Assembly: GCA_029262475.1 (NCBI GenBank)
Contig: JAJCZG010000013.1
Coordinates: forward strand, 1 to 43,517
Length of the DNA stretch: 43,517 nt
Source: Deltaproteobacteria bacterium
GTDB lineage: Bacteria > Desulfobacterota > GWC2-55-46 > JAJCZF01
Direction of reading: 5' to 3'
Position numbers and translations under genes: made by a program. The notes beneath the pieces were generated by a model. The model was not told the DNA's origin. It worked only from the letters and a program-made list of their open reading frames with translations, and made no database searches. This document shows positions 2,821 to 33,437 of the stretch, piece by piece (the first letter of the stretch is position 1; every line of letters starts with the position of its first letter).

Positions 2821-2843
2821 TTATTCGCTTAGCGAGTCCCGAA
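2821..2843. repeat. inverted partial copy of the 106-bp repeat
   Basis: The reverse complement of this stretch reads GACTCGCTAAGCGAATAAAC, close to the CCTCGCTATGCGAATTAAAAC segment of the adjacent array with a few differences. The array is therefore bordered on its prfA side by an inverted remnant of its own sequence. Between it and prfA (2761-2820) I see only a short ACTCTTT/AAAGAGT dyad. Confidence 0.55.
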
Positions 2844-2844
2844 A

Positions 2845-3155
2845 AGAGACTTTTTGCTTGTACGCAACATTTGCCGTATAGTGCGTCTTGGGCAAATCAC
2901 TTTACGCCTCGCTATGCGAATTAAAACCACACTGGTGTGGTGCTTCTAAAAGAGATTATTTACTTGTACGCAACATTTGCCGTATAGTGCGTCTTGGGCA
3001 AATCACTTTACGCCTCGCTATGCGAATTAAAACCACACTGGTGTGGTGCTTCTAAAAGAGACTTTTTACTTGTACGCAACATTTGCCGCGTAGTGCGTCT
3101 TGGGTAAATCACTTTACGCCTCGCTACGCGTATTAAAACCACACTGGTGGTGTGG
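2845..3155. repeat. three tandem copies of a 106-bp intergenic element
   Basis: Units begin at 2845, 2951 and 3057, so the period is exactly 106 bp. Units 1 and 2 differ at three positions by eye. Unit 3 has several more changes, a 3-bp insertion in its last hairpin, and ends at the thyX stop codon. Each unit contains two dyads: ATTTGCC/GGCAAAT with a 15-base loop, and ACCACAC-TG-GTGTGGT. On the minus strand the second is followed by TTTT, like a mini-terminator placed right after the thyX stop. No reading frame or unique spacer is present. The array lies between thyX and prfA, so it would be transcribed with them if they form an operon. Confidence 0.93.
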
Positions 3156-3845
3156 TTAGAGGTTTTTGAATTTTTCTCTAATTTCTAGGGGCTTTCCGCA
3201 GGTCATACTACCTTCGCTGCACTTGCCGGTGACGCACGCCGGGCCAGCGTCCTTAAAGATAATAGGAGCGGCTTCTTTTGCGAGCTTAGCCATGTCGATA
3301 GCCATCTCGCGTATCTCCCACTGGGCGCGTTCGCAGCCCCTGAGGCTAAAGAAGTGGAGGAGTGTTCTGGCATTCATGGTTATTATGATTTTTGTGCATG
3401 CGGCATTCGGGAGGATGAAGCGCGCGTCCTCGGGCGGCAGCCCAGCGTCCAATAACTCTCCGTATATGGCATAGATATCGGCGACCGCTTCTTCGAAGCG
3501 TTTACTTATATCCGGCCTTTCGGCAATGGACGGGGGAGTGACGTATTCGTTGTTTTGATCGAAGGTGACGTAACGCTGGCTCTGCTGAGAATATGAGGCG
3601 ATCCTGTGACGGACAAGCTGGTGCGAGGCGGAACGCGAGATGCCGTCCACTCCGAATGTGAAATTTGCGTGTTCGAGGACTGAAAGGTGCCCCATATCCA
3701 GTATCTTTCCGAGAAACTTCTCGTAAGATATACCCTCGACCTTATCTTCGAGTTCCTCGACGGAACACGGAGAGTAGCAGAGCTTGGCGGCTAGAACTAC
3801 CGTCTTCTCAGGCTCGGGTGTGTGGGTTAAGAGCGTAACTTTCAC
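3156..3845 (-). CDS. thyX: flavin-dependent thymidylate synthase ThyX
   Basis: ThyX makes dTMP from dUMP using methylenetetrahydrofolate, FAD and NADPH, and replaces ThyA in many anaerobes and deltaproteobacteria. The 229-residue protein carries the ThyX signature RHRxxSxxxxSxR as RHRIASYSQQSQR, starting at residue 79. The C-terminus is cysteine-rich (CVTGKCSEGSMTCG), an unusual tail that could bind metal, though this is inference. The start is GTG at 3845, 15 bases after the rpmE stop, so the two are probably cotranscribed. The 106-bp repeat array starts immediately after its stop. Confidence 0.95.
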   Translation of the reverse strand: MKVTLLTHTPEPEKTVVLAAKLCYSPCSVEELEDKVEGISYEKFLGKILDMGHLSVLEHANFTFGVDGISRSASHQLVRHRIASYSQQSQRYVTFDQNNEYVTPPSIAERPDISKRFEEAVADIYAIYGELLDAGLPPEDARFILPNAACTKIIITMNARTLLHFFSLRGCERAQWEIREMAIDMAKLAKEAAPIIFKDAGPACVTGKCSEGSMTCGKPLEIREKFKNL

Positions 3846-13116: not shown

Positions 13117-13140
13117 CACACCAGTGTGCTTTTGATTCGC
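13117..13140 (+). repeat. single dispersed copy of the 106-bp element's hairpin end
   Basis: Starting at the base after the birA stop, CACACCAGTGTG-C-TTTT-G-ATTCGC matches the minus-strand start of the thyX-prfA repeat unit (CACACCAGTGTGGTTTTAATTCGC) at 22 of 24 positions. In both places the hairpin follows directly after a stop codon. The remaining bases to coaX contain AAGGGG as its ribosome site. Confidence 0.65.
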
Positions 13141-13200
13141 GCACCGTACAGCCTATGGATTGCAAACAGCCATTCTATTTTGTAAGGGGTTTACGAGTTG

Positions 13201-25842: not shown

Positions 25843-26448
25843 CTACATGCCTCCGCACGGATTCTTCATGGAGCAAGGGTTCATTGTACCACACGGGTTC
25901 ATCGCTCCGCATGGGTTTTTCATGGCGCAGGGGTTCTTTGTGGCGCAGGGATTCATAGCTCCGCACGGGTTTTTCATGGCGCAGGGATTAGGCGCTGAAG
26001 AATTTGCGTTTATATAGGCGACAAGGGCCTTCATTTCTTTGCCGTTTACGTCCAGAGCTTTGGCCTTCATCGGAGTTTCCATGCAGAAGTTCACCATCCC
26101 CTTAAGCGAGATAACCTTGTCCGGCATCTTTATATATTTGGGATACGGGGTATTATACAGGCCCTGCCCATTCGGGTGGCAGGTGGCGCACGACATCCCC
26201 GAGTTACCGAGGGAGACGTCTTTCCAAAGCTTCTCTCCGTGCTTTAACGCACCGCTGGCGCAGGGATTTTTCATGGAGCAAGGGTTCATCGCTCCGCATG
26301 GGTTTTTCATGGCACAGGGGTTCTTTGTGGCCGACGGTTTCTTCGACATTGCTACCTGCTGGTACTCTACGGCCTCTGTTGCTTGAACCATCCCAGTAAA
26401 GGCTAGAAGAATGGTAGGGATGATTAGCAGACTCAGTATCTTTTTCAC
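25843..26448 (-). CDS. periplasmic monohaem cytochrome c with NPC hexapeptide repeats
   Basis: A signal peptide (residues 1-23, cleavage after VQA) sends it to the periplasm. A small class I cytochrome c domain has the haem site Cys87-Ala-Thr-Cys90-His91 and candidate methionine ligands around 123-128. On both sides lie hexapeptides of the form NPC[AGS][MAT][KM]: four at residues 43-66 and eight at 154-201, giving 12 cysteines and many methionines. The DNA repeats have an 18-bp period. Similar NPC-rich tails occur in other environmental bacteria, with no known function. Metal (soft copper-type) or multi-thiol chemistry is a plausible inference. The start is GTG at 26448, with GGAG six bases upstream. 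Last gene of its operon. Confidence 0.88.
   Translation of the reverse strand: MKKILSLLIIPTILLAFTGMVQATEAVEYQQVAMSKKPSATKNPCAMKNPCGAMNPCSMKNPCASGALKHGEKLWKDVSLGNSGMSCATCHPNGQGLYNTPYPKYIKMPDKVISLKGMVNFCMETPMKAKALDVNGKEMKALVAYINANSSAPNPCAMKNPCGAMNPCATKNPCAMKNPCGAMNPCGTMNPCSMKNPCGGM
25846..25989 (-). repeat. eight 18-bp coding repeats (C-terminal NPC block)
   Basis: Eight in-frame hexapeptide units encode residues 154-201 of the cytochrome, all with Asn-Pro-Cys at positions 1-3. A second block of four units is at 26251-26322. Near-identical 18-bp units suggest expansion by slippage or unequal exchange. Confidence 0.85.
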
Positions 26449-27129: not shown

Positions 27130-27318
27130 TTAATAATTACTGTTTTCGTATCCTGAGATACCCGTATATTTTCCCTCTTCTTTACGCTCGCCGCCAGGAG
27201 TGTGACGGCTTAATTCAACTCTCTCGCCCTGCTTCATGAGAATACAATTCTCACGAAGCCCTACTACCGTTTTCTTAACGCTCGTAGGTGGAAGTAAAGG
27301 ATTGTGAATCATGCTCAT
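27130..27318 (-). CDS. 62-aa protein of a new small family (copy A), probably leaderless
   Basis: No known family is recognised. The start at ATG 27318 has no Shine-Dalgarno sequence and lies eight bases after a TATTCT -10 box, so the message should be leaderless. The first 38 residues align without gaps to the protein at 33105-33257, with 11 identities: Met1, Ser2, Leu9, Thr12, Thr17, Cys25, Ile26, Lys29, Glu32, Leu36 and Ser37. The common core is C-I-x2-K-x2-E-x3-LS. The tail (GGERKEEGKYTG) is hydrophilic. It heads the DsrE-like, thioredoxin-like and cytochrome genes, with 15 bases to the next. Paralogy and promoter conservation support it as real. Confidence 0.68.
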   Translation of the reverse strand: MSMIHNPLLPPTSVKKTVVGLRENCILMKQGERVELSRHTPGGERKEEGKYTGISGYENSNY

Positions 27319-27326
27319 ATATAAGA

Positions 27327-27369
27327 AGAATAATGGAAGTTACGGAGAAAAGATGTATGGAGGATTACA
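27327..27369 (-). promoter_or_regulatory. promoter A with Crp/Fnr-type operator
   Basis: On the minus strand TGTAATCCTCCATACA contains GTA-N8-TAC (27355-27368). After exactly 22 bases comes TATTCT (27327-27332), with no -35 match. The dyad centre is about 41.5 bases before the predicted start, the class II position of Crp/Fnr-family activators such as NtcA (GTAN8TAC). The same arrangement occurs at 33264-33306. Confidence 0.68.
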
Positions 27370-27422
27370 AAAAAGAACTTCAAGGTCGGGAAAGCTGATA
27401 GAGAAGTTGATGGGCGTCGGCG

Positions 27423-31298: not shown

Positions 31299-32417
31299 TT
31301 AAATTTTTAATAATAAATATATACACCCGCTAAGTATTGCGGCAATCGGAAGGGTTAAAAGCCATGATAAAAGTATCTCCGATATAATACGCTTATTGCC
31401 CTTTTTTGTAATGAGTCCGATGCCAAAGATGGAACCAACGGATACATGGGTAGTAGATACCGGTATGCCGAGCCTGCTTGCAAATACCACAAGCGCGCCA
31501 GTGACGATGTTTGCCGTAAAACCCTGTCCGTGATTAAGTGGAGTGATCTTCTTGCTCATTGTTAGAGCGACCCTTCTGGCATTTAGAAGCCCGCCGGTGG
31601 CCATACCAATGGCCACGAAGAGCATTGCGGACTGGACTTCAAGCGCCTTTATAGCAAGAAGTAACGCTACAATTTTAGGAGTGTCGTTTAAGCCGCGAGC
31701 AAAGCACACAATGCCGGCGCTTATATAATGAGCAAAATCCAGTGCCTTCTGGCAGTTTATTCCAAGGACACTTCCCCGGTATAGCTCTCTGCAATTTTCT
31801 TCCTTATCCAGGGTGGAGTAGGTAGTAGTAACTGAAGCGCTTGTGATGACGGAAGCCGGTTCAACTAGTGGAATAGTCTTTTCGGTCTTCCCGATGCACA
31901 GGCACCAGTCTTTTGTTACTCCAAAGTGAACCCTCACCCTGCGAAAGAAACTATAAAGAGTAGCCCCCAGGGTAACCGCAATTATTGGACTTATGAGGAG
32001 AGGAAGAAGAAAAGAGTTCCCAAGAATGCTGAAATCGACATTTGTCCCTACTGCCATTAAACCGGCGCCAATAAGGGCGCCTATCAAGCTGTGGGTTGTT
32101 GATATTGGGAAGCCCAGGACGGTCGCAAGCATTACAGTTGAAGCTCCGCCCATTGCAACGGAAAGGAGAAAGTCCGGGGATAGAGCGATAGCGTCCGGAA
32201 CAAGTCCCTTCCCGGAGAAGCTTTTGACCAGAGACTCGGCGAGAAAGATAGAGCAGAGTGAGCCGATAAATGTTGCTATGGTTGCCAGCCAGATTGCGGA
32301 TTTATAGTTTGTAGTTCCGCTGCCAAATAAGGTTGCCACCCCTTTGAAATTATCATTGGCCCCGTTGGAATATGATAGAAAGCAAGTGCCCAGGAAGAGA
32401 AGTATCAAAACCGTCAT
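31299..32417 (-). CDS. PiT-family inorganic phosphate (anion) permease
   Basis: This is a polytopic inner-membrane permease of about ten helices, built as an inverted repeat. Both PiT signatures are present: GANDNFKG near residue 19 and GLNDTPK in the second half, each later followed by STTHSLIG or STTHVSVG. The length of 372 residues is short for the family, with a brief central hydrophilic loop. PiT proteins move phosphate with cations, and some relatives carry sulfate. The ATG overlaps the stop of the glutaredoxin fusion gene (ATGA), so they are translationally coupled. No phoU-like (DUF47) gene, the usual partner, is present. The pairing with a thiol protein raises the possibility of another substrate. 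Confidence 0.9.
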   Translation of the reverse strand: MTVLILLFLGTCFLSYSNGANDNFKGVATLFGSGTTNYKSAIWLATIATFIGSLCSIFLAESLVKSFSGKGLVPDAIALSPDFLLSVAMGGASTVMLATVLGFPISTTHSLIGALIGAGLMAVGTNVDFSILGNSFLLPLLISPIIAVTLGATLYSFFRRVRVHFGVTKDWCLCIGKTEKTIPLVEPASVITSASVTTTYSTLDKEENCRELYRGSVLGINCQKALDFAHYISAGIVCFARGLNDTPKIVALLLAIKALEVQSAMLFVAIGMATGGLLNARRVALTMSKKITPLNHGQGFTANIVTGALVVFASRLGIPVSTTHVSVGSIFGIGLITKKGNKRIISEILLSWLLTLPIAAILSGCIYLLLKI

Positions 32418-32989
32418 TTGATTATCGCCGGTAGCTTTAGTAATTCTCTTAGCGTATCGGAGCCGCCGACGTATTTACCGTCGAGCCATATCTGAGGCAC
32501 GGTAATGGGGGTTTTTGAGTCGATTAGCGGTTTTACCCGTGCAAACATCTCGTACAAATCCCTCGGGCTCGCTACGACGTCATGGTACTGGTAGTCGATC
32601 CCCGCATCTTTAAGGTCTTTCTTCGCCCTTTTGCAATACGGACACCCGGTTTTTCCGAAGAAGTGATTTCCTGTAATAAAGGATTTTTCACAAAAACTCT
32701 CTATTACCGCCTGGGTAAGGAGGCCACGGTTTAAGGCCACCCCCTGTGATATTACCTTACCGTCCACCATTACTATTGGAGCGTGCCACCCGCCTTTGAG
32801 AAGCGGCTTCCACCACTGGGTAAGCCACTCCCTGAACTCCGTCTCTACGGGTATGCCGGCGAGCTCTTTGTGTACTGTATCCTCAATAACATCTTTTGTA
32901 AGCGCGCACTCTCCACAAGGGATTTTAATCTTAAAAGGACCCCATGAGCCCGCCCATCTGTAGACTGTTATATTTACACTCGTTTTCAC
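32414..32989 (-). CDS. thioredoxin-like / glutaredoxin two-domain fusion
   Basis: The first about 100 residues look thioredoxin-fold: VYRWAGSWGPF, a Cys25-Gly-Glu-Cys28 pair and a candidate cis-proline at HAPIVMVDGKV. Residues about 108-191 are a glutaredoxin with Cys116-Pro-Tyr-Cys119, TVPQIWLDGKYVGG and a final helix. A two-CxxC fusion suggests internal electron relay for disulfide or glutathione chemistry in the cytoplasm; no signal peptide is seen. The start is GTG at 32989, with AGGGA upstream. Its stop overlaps the permease ATG. Upstream at 33105-33257 is small protein B with promoter B, so the three may form one operon, though the 115-base gap could hide another start. Confidence 0.85.
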   Translation of the reverse strand: MKTSVNITVYRWAGSWGPFKIKIPCGECALTKDVIEDTVHKELAGIPVETEFREWLTQWWKPLLKGGWHAPIVMVDGKVISQGVALNRGLLTQAVIESFCEKSFITGNHFFGKTGCPYCKRAKKDLKDAGIDYQYHDVVASPRDLYEMFARVKPLIDSKTPITVPQIWLDGKYVGGSDTLRELLKLPAIIK

Positions 32990-33104: not shown

Positions 33105-33257
33105 TTACTCATCATCTTTTTTCTTGGCCTTATTTAAAACTGCTTTACTTAACTTAATCTTTTCATTTCTTTTAAGTATTATACAGTACCCCAAATGCTC
33201 TTCTTCTGTATAGTCTTTACCAGTTGATGACAAGTTTGATGATTGCTCTTTACTCAT
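33105..33257 (-). CDS. 50-aa protein of a new small family (copy B), probably leaderless
   Basis: The frame is open further upstream to 33419, but the start at ATG 33257 is chosen because it aligns exactly with copy A at 27318 and lies six bases after the TATTCT box; no Shine-Dalgarno sequence precedes it. Cys25, Ile26, Lys29, Glu32, Leu36 and Ser37 are shared with copy A at the same positions. The C-terminus is Lys/Asp-rich (NKAKKKDDE). There is no known domain, signal peptide or membrane segment. It leads toward the glutaredoxin fusion and PiT permease. The role could be a small redox switch or adaptor; this is a guess. Confidence 0.66.
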   Translation of the reverse strand: MSKEQSSNLSSTGKDYTEEEHLGYCIILKRNEKIKLSKAVLNKAKKKDDE

Positions 33258-33263
33258 ATAATA

Positions 33264-33306
33264 AGAATAGTGGAAGTTAGAGAAAAAACATGTAAGGAGG
33301 CTTACA
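33264..33306 (-). promoter_or_regulatory. promoter B with Crp/Fnr-type operator
   Basis: On the minus strand TGTAAGCCTCCTTACA is a 6-bp perfect dyad containing GTA-N8-TAC (33292-33305). It lies 22 bases upstream of TATTCT (33264-33269). The whole block from the dyad to the ATG is largely the same as promoter A, including TAACTTCCA before the -10. Confidence 0.7.
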
Positions 33307-33437
33307 AAAACTCGTCTTTGTAGAAGCCGACATCGTTGAAAGAGGCGCCCCAATAAGTAGGTTTGGAGGCTCGTCTCTTCTCTAGACAATGTGAGACGCA
33401 CCCCAAGTAATACGCGCAAAACTCTTAGGGGAAGCTA

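Follow-up and report, generated by a model that had tools for sequence, protein, structure and literature searches.

A family of small cysteine-containing proteins encoded behind a putative Crp/Fnr-type promoter

The two small ORFs and their operons

The window (the whole 43,517-nt stretch of DNA analysed) carries two small ORFs on its minus strand, of 62 and 50 aa, both correctly picked out by the initial annotation (Table 1); the 62-aa ORF is followed by genes for a DsrE-like protein, a thioredoxin-like protein and a cytochrome c, and the 50-aa ORF by genes for a thioredoxin/glutaredoxin (Trx/Grx) fusion and a PiT permease. The two small proteins align without a gap from their common start with 11 identities over 38 residues, including C25-I26, K29, E32 and L36-S37, again as first described. 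The ungapped alignment exceeds chance: the local BLOSUM62 score of 46 (shuffles 21.6 +/- 4.2) is reached by 1 of 5000 shuffles, and when the start sets the register and residues 1 and 2 are omitted, 1 in 20,000 shuffles (5 in 100,000) matches the score. Identity at codon positions 1, 2 and 3 is 47%, 61% and 26%, which reads as the pattern of diverged coding sequences; the evidence supports the view of both ORFs as homologous protein-coding genes from a family not catalogued before. The genome that contains the window is incomplete (2.4 Mb in 145 contigs) and is the sole member of its taxonomic family among the genomes compared, which carry labels of the form G026 below.

Table 1. Features of the two loci in the window
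Feature	Position	Strand	Details
SoxA/TsdA-type cytochrome c with NPC repeats	25843..26448	minus	PF21342, E 2.4e-16
Thioredoxin-like protein, 77 aa	26483..26716	minus	PDB 2k8s (solved thioredoxin), E 7e-13
DsrE-like protein, 121 aa	26749..27114	minus	PF02635, E 1.5e-4, just below cut-off
Small protein, 62 aa	27130..27318	minus	first ORF of its operon; core ENCILMKQGERV; profile E 1.3e-20 (itself a profile member)
Promoter repeat, copy 1	27319..27373	minus	operator-like TGTAATCCTCCATACA, then TATTCT; ATG 35 nt past operator
Operator-like palindrome, copy 1	27354..27369		imperfect
PiT-family permease (PHO4/PiT)	31299..32417	minus	PF01384, E 9e-65
191-aa Trx/Grx fusion	32414..32989	minus	C-terminal glutaredoxin domain, PF00462, E 8.7e-14
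Small protein, 50 aa	33105..33257	minus	core GYCIILKRNEKI; profile E 5.8e-14 (itself a profile member)
Promoter repeat, copy 2	33256..33310	minus	operator TGTAAGCCTCCTTACA, TATTCT, 6 nt, ATG; operator to ATG 33 nt
Operator palindrome, copy 2	33291..33306		perfect 6-bp arms

The DsrE-like protein has orthologues of 56-65% identity in four genomes. The permease also matches an NCBIfam sulfate permease family weakly (E 1.2e-21, below cut-off). Both ends of the cytochrome c carry NPC (Asn-Pro-Cys) motifs repeated in tandem, with an 18-nt period in the DNA, and the protein is a recurrent partner in related clusters.

A small-protein family in related genomes

Ten good members of the family were found in nine genomes, all at the same position, together with a weak third copy in the genome of the window (contig C54, 49 aa, core EPCAVIKVNKGGRF), which matches the family core poorly. 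The suggestion of a new two-member family therefore stands as to its novelty, as the small proteins have no match in Pfam, NCBIfam or PHROGs (0 families), but not as to its size. The core common to the ten members is C-[IMQ]-x-[LIFM]-[KR]-[KRQ]-x-[ED], in which the Cys is the sole invariant residue of the protein other than Met1; of the pattern first proposed, C-I-x2-K-x2-E-x3-LS, the first part is retained while the x3-LS tail is not general.

Single-sequence searches with either window protein give weak matches only; the first of these, with a best E of 0.005 in G018, was taken as chance, while weak matches in G026 and G013 turned out to be real by position. Both queries match the same place in G026, which lies 1.7 kb from a separately found DsrE orthologue. 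A profile search of 395 genomes of the phylum adds G104, from another class, and its other matches were rejected as they have no operator; a search with the regulator described below adds G047, G028, G013 and the third copy in the genome of the window. A plasmid search with a small-protein query and a search of viral contigs with the regulator found nothing, and a literature search found no paper on this gene cluster. The small peptide appears to be dispensable, since, among loci found by position alone, the third copy is weak, the ORF is cut to 12 codons in G051, 8 in G012 and 3 in G037, and G061, G049 and G056 have the operator with no small ORF at the expected start.

In the core of the ten members, some of which were picked by motif so that the conservation measure is biased, the mean pairwise BLOSUM62 score is 2.41 per residue in frame vs 0.04 and 0.11 in the other frames, entropy is 1.31 at the third codon position vs 0.48 and 0.51 at the others, and pN/pS is 0.26. 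This bias is countered by G047, G028, G013, G006 and G016, whose members were located through their place behind the operator and yet have the core. Across two classes the amino acids of the core are kept while synonymous sites turn over, and the core peptide is under selection at the amino-acid level; as the initial annotation had anticipated for a real family, homologues exist elsewhere and the substitution pattern is unlike that of noncoding DNA. The remainder of each protein is hydrophilic and shows no conservation. The AlphaFold model is poor (mean pLDDT 62, pTM 0.25) with better confidence only around residues 21-40, and the small proteins are mostly disordered. No PDB fold matches the model and no solved structure is credible by profile either; profile matches to CHMP3 in the PDB (E 0.05) were taken as chance.

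Each small ORF had been thought to head a thiol-redox operon, and the homologue search proposed with that claim showed that related genomes do carry homologues adjoining sulfur/thiol and cytochrome genes; the constant neighbour, however, is the Crp/Fnr-type promoter, mostly together with the regulator gene. A common layout is seen in G026, G022, G006 and G016, where the regulator gene is followed by the palindrome TGTAAG-N4-CTTACA (one base off in G016), the small ORF with a core of C-I-x-L-K-K-G-E or a variant of it, genes for DsrE and/or SEC-C, and an NPC-rich SoxA-like cytochrome c; longer loci add a multihaem cytochrome and a PiT permease. In G006 and G016 the small ORF and DsrE form one continuous frame, although DsrE retains a possible separate start; in G022 the stop of the small ORF overlaps the DsrE start, and in G104 and G013 there is no DsrE beside it. 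Behind the small ORF of G047 (locus L185) lies what seems to be left of a deleted DsrE gene, with the promoter and the peptide core kept.

The Trx/Grx fusion did not hold up as a partner: its orthologues elsewhere come without the small ORF, the association being absent in three orthologues from the same order and in 80 wider loci. Versions of the 191-aa fusion itself (L052-L131) from alpha-, beta-, gamma- and deltaproteobacteria and cyanobacterial MAGs share about 60-70% identity, a broad spread which suggests wide horizontal transfer.

A probable shared promoter and its putative regulator

The 55 nt directly upstream of the two window starts, overlooked by the initial annotation, are 85% identical, whereas the ORFs themselves are 45% identical in DNA; this stretch aligns as DNA with a score of 70, whereas shuffles reach at most 27, and its 29-nt operator part occurs in two copies only in the 2.4-Mb genome with up to three mismatches allowed. 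Both copies feature a palindrome, TGTAA-N6-TTACA, with the ATG 33-35 nt further on; the general layout is a palindrome, a TANNNT -10 box about 22 nt beyond it, and the ATG 6 nt after the box. Across 14 promoters the gap between palindrome and ATG is 33 nt in nine, 34 nt in three, 32 nt in one and 35 nt in one (the 62-aa ORF of the window), and in 11 of them exactly 6 nt separate the TANNNT hexamer from the ATG. The GTAN8TAC palindrome is present at 12 of the 14 sites, with one-base deviations in G016 (TGTAAGCCCCCTCACA) and G028 (TGTGAGCGCCATTACA); provided that the A of the ATG is +1, the operator centre lies at -41.5 in nine. A strict form of the promoter pattern gives 12 matches in 63 genomes, nine at these operons and three elsewhere, and one match for the reversed control.

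The 55-nt stretch is very probably a promoter with a Crp/Fnr-type operator, its reading as the target of such a regulator included, and its geometry suggests a leaderless start of the small ORF. Coding on the plus strand was rejected, as copy 2 has stops in the frame that best fits the mismatches and only the operator, the -10 box and the ATG are kept in relatives. A mobile element or REP-like repeat was set aside given only two copies in the genome, and a structured RNA or riboswitch given the lack of an Rfam match (weak sub-threshold matches only) and of a consistent folding excess.

The regulator gene immediately precedes the operator and the small ORF in most genomes, and regulator orthologues carry the operator right behind their gene. 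These orthologues form a clean group above 360 bits, with the next match at 213 bits; matches below 215 bits are considered to be paralogues and come without the operator-plus-start layout. The orthologue in the genome of the window is 56% identical to that of G022; its locus (G000:C54:3110-3835, L183) continues with the same operator, the weak 49-aa ORF and the start of an NPC-containing gene, at which point the contig ends. The regulator is Crp-like, and by score it is not NtcA (85 bits vs the NtcA equivalog cut-off of 245).

Class II promoters of NtcA in cyanobacteria feature GTAN8TAC centred at about -41.5 and a -10 box of TAN3T (PMC3898017). The promoters described here share with them the GTA-N8-TAC core, the spacing to the -10 box and to the presumed start, and a Crp-family regulator; they differ in the identity of that regulator, in the sulfur and cytochrome gene context, and in a presumed start which coincides with the ATG. 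The family is new, while the type of regulation is already known.

Proposed function and alternatives

The reading put forward is that the Cys proteins are the first ORFs of operons under a dedicated Crp/Fnr regulator, to which a probability of roughly 0.5 is assigned. The regulator would bind the palindrome as a class II activator, and the transcription start would coincide with the ATG or lie no more than a couple of bases from it; the small ORF would therefore be translated from a leaderless mRNA. Less firmly, the peptide may act in trans through its invariant Cys, as a thiol or persulfide-carrying partner of the sulfur-transfer and redox proteins encoded in the same transcript (DsrE, thioredoxin/glutaredoxin); together they would form a module handing sulfur and electrons to SoxA-like and multihaem cytochromes. 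The invariant Cys and the in-frame run into DsrE in two genomes argue for a role in trans, and the neighbouring DsrE, thioredoxin/glutaredoxin and cytochrome genes point to sulfur and electron transfer. DsrE/DsrF-like sulfurtransferases (PF02635) are a frequent next gene, although the small protein itself has no similarity to DsrE. A trans-acting thiol peptide of a sulfur-transfer module is, tentatively, slightly favoured over a leader acting in cis.

The main rival, considered to be rather unlikely, is such a cis-acting leader, in which the leaderless ORF would control, or be coupled to, translation of the gene that follows, with its Cys core read as nascent peptide. Each predicted target operon in the genome of the window has its own copy at the presumed +1, the small ORF travels with the promoter and not with any given enzyme gene, and both the stop-start overlap in G022 and the reduction of the ORF to 3-12 codons in three genomes would suit a leader. 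In mycobacteria, leaderless ORFs with Cys codons are attenuators according to a review (PMC9031893), which cites polycysteine short ORFs of this kind (Canestrari 2020); as far as they are described there, these resemble the present case in being short, Cys-containing, presumably leaderless first ORFs ahead of operon genes, and the promoter geometry here would fit translation from a 5'-terminal AUG. Unlike the ORFs in that account, the core here has a single Cys and no contiguous Cys codons, which speaks against the polycysteine mechanism, and the conserved core is longer; the RNA behind the ORF is not unusually structured in five cases (z -1.9 to +0.35), with no attenuator. Downstream genes often have a good Shine-Dalgarno sequence of their own, and the distance to the next gene ranges from overlap to more than 100 nt, neither of which favours a leader. 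It is improbable that the leaderless Cys peptide senses thiol or sulfane-sulfur state in cis, as a nascent chain, and was copied along with the promoter of the dedicated regulator; if true, every target operon would bear its own translational check atop transcriptional activation.

It is very doubtful that the promoter alone is functional, with the leaderless ATG yielding a short, meaningless ORF and the motif being residual: the promoter is indeed better conserved than the ORF between the two window copies, and the truncations in G051, G012 and G037 would follow, but conservation of the core as protein across two classes already makes this unlikely. An equally small chance is given to a peptide that serves the Crp/Fnr regulator itself, as a sensor or anti-activator, and not the enzymes; the small ORF constantly adjoins the regulator gene and its sites, yet three genomes retain regulator and operator with hardly any peptide, and multiple copies would be redundant.

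The finding extends well beyond the window, and the promoter-regulator unit is its centre of gravity. It adds a small-protein family that is missed by current libraries and is linked to a single regulator and a single, rigid promoter layout; a 50-nt pattern makes it possible to predict which genes an uncharacterised Crp/Fnr protein controls. The coupling of a putative class II activator site with an ATG at the presumed +1 is unusual, and would provide a clean test of leaderless small-ORF function outside mycobacteria.

Elsewhere in the window, three tandem 106-nt repeats (90-97%) lie at 2842-3159; an inverted match to part of them (24 nt, 92%) stands some 10 kb away, at 13117-13146.
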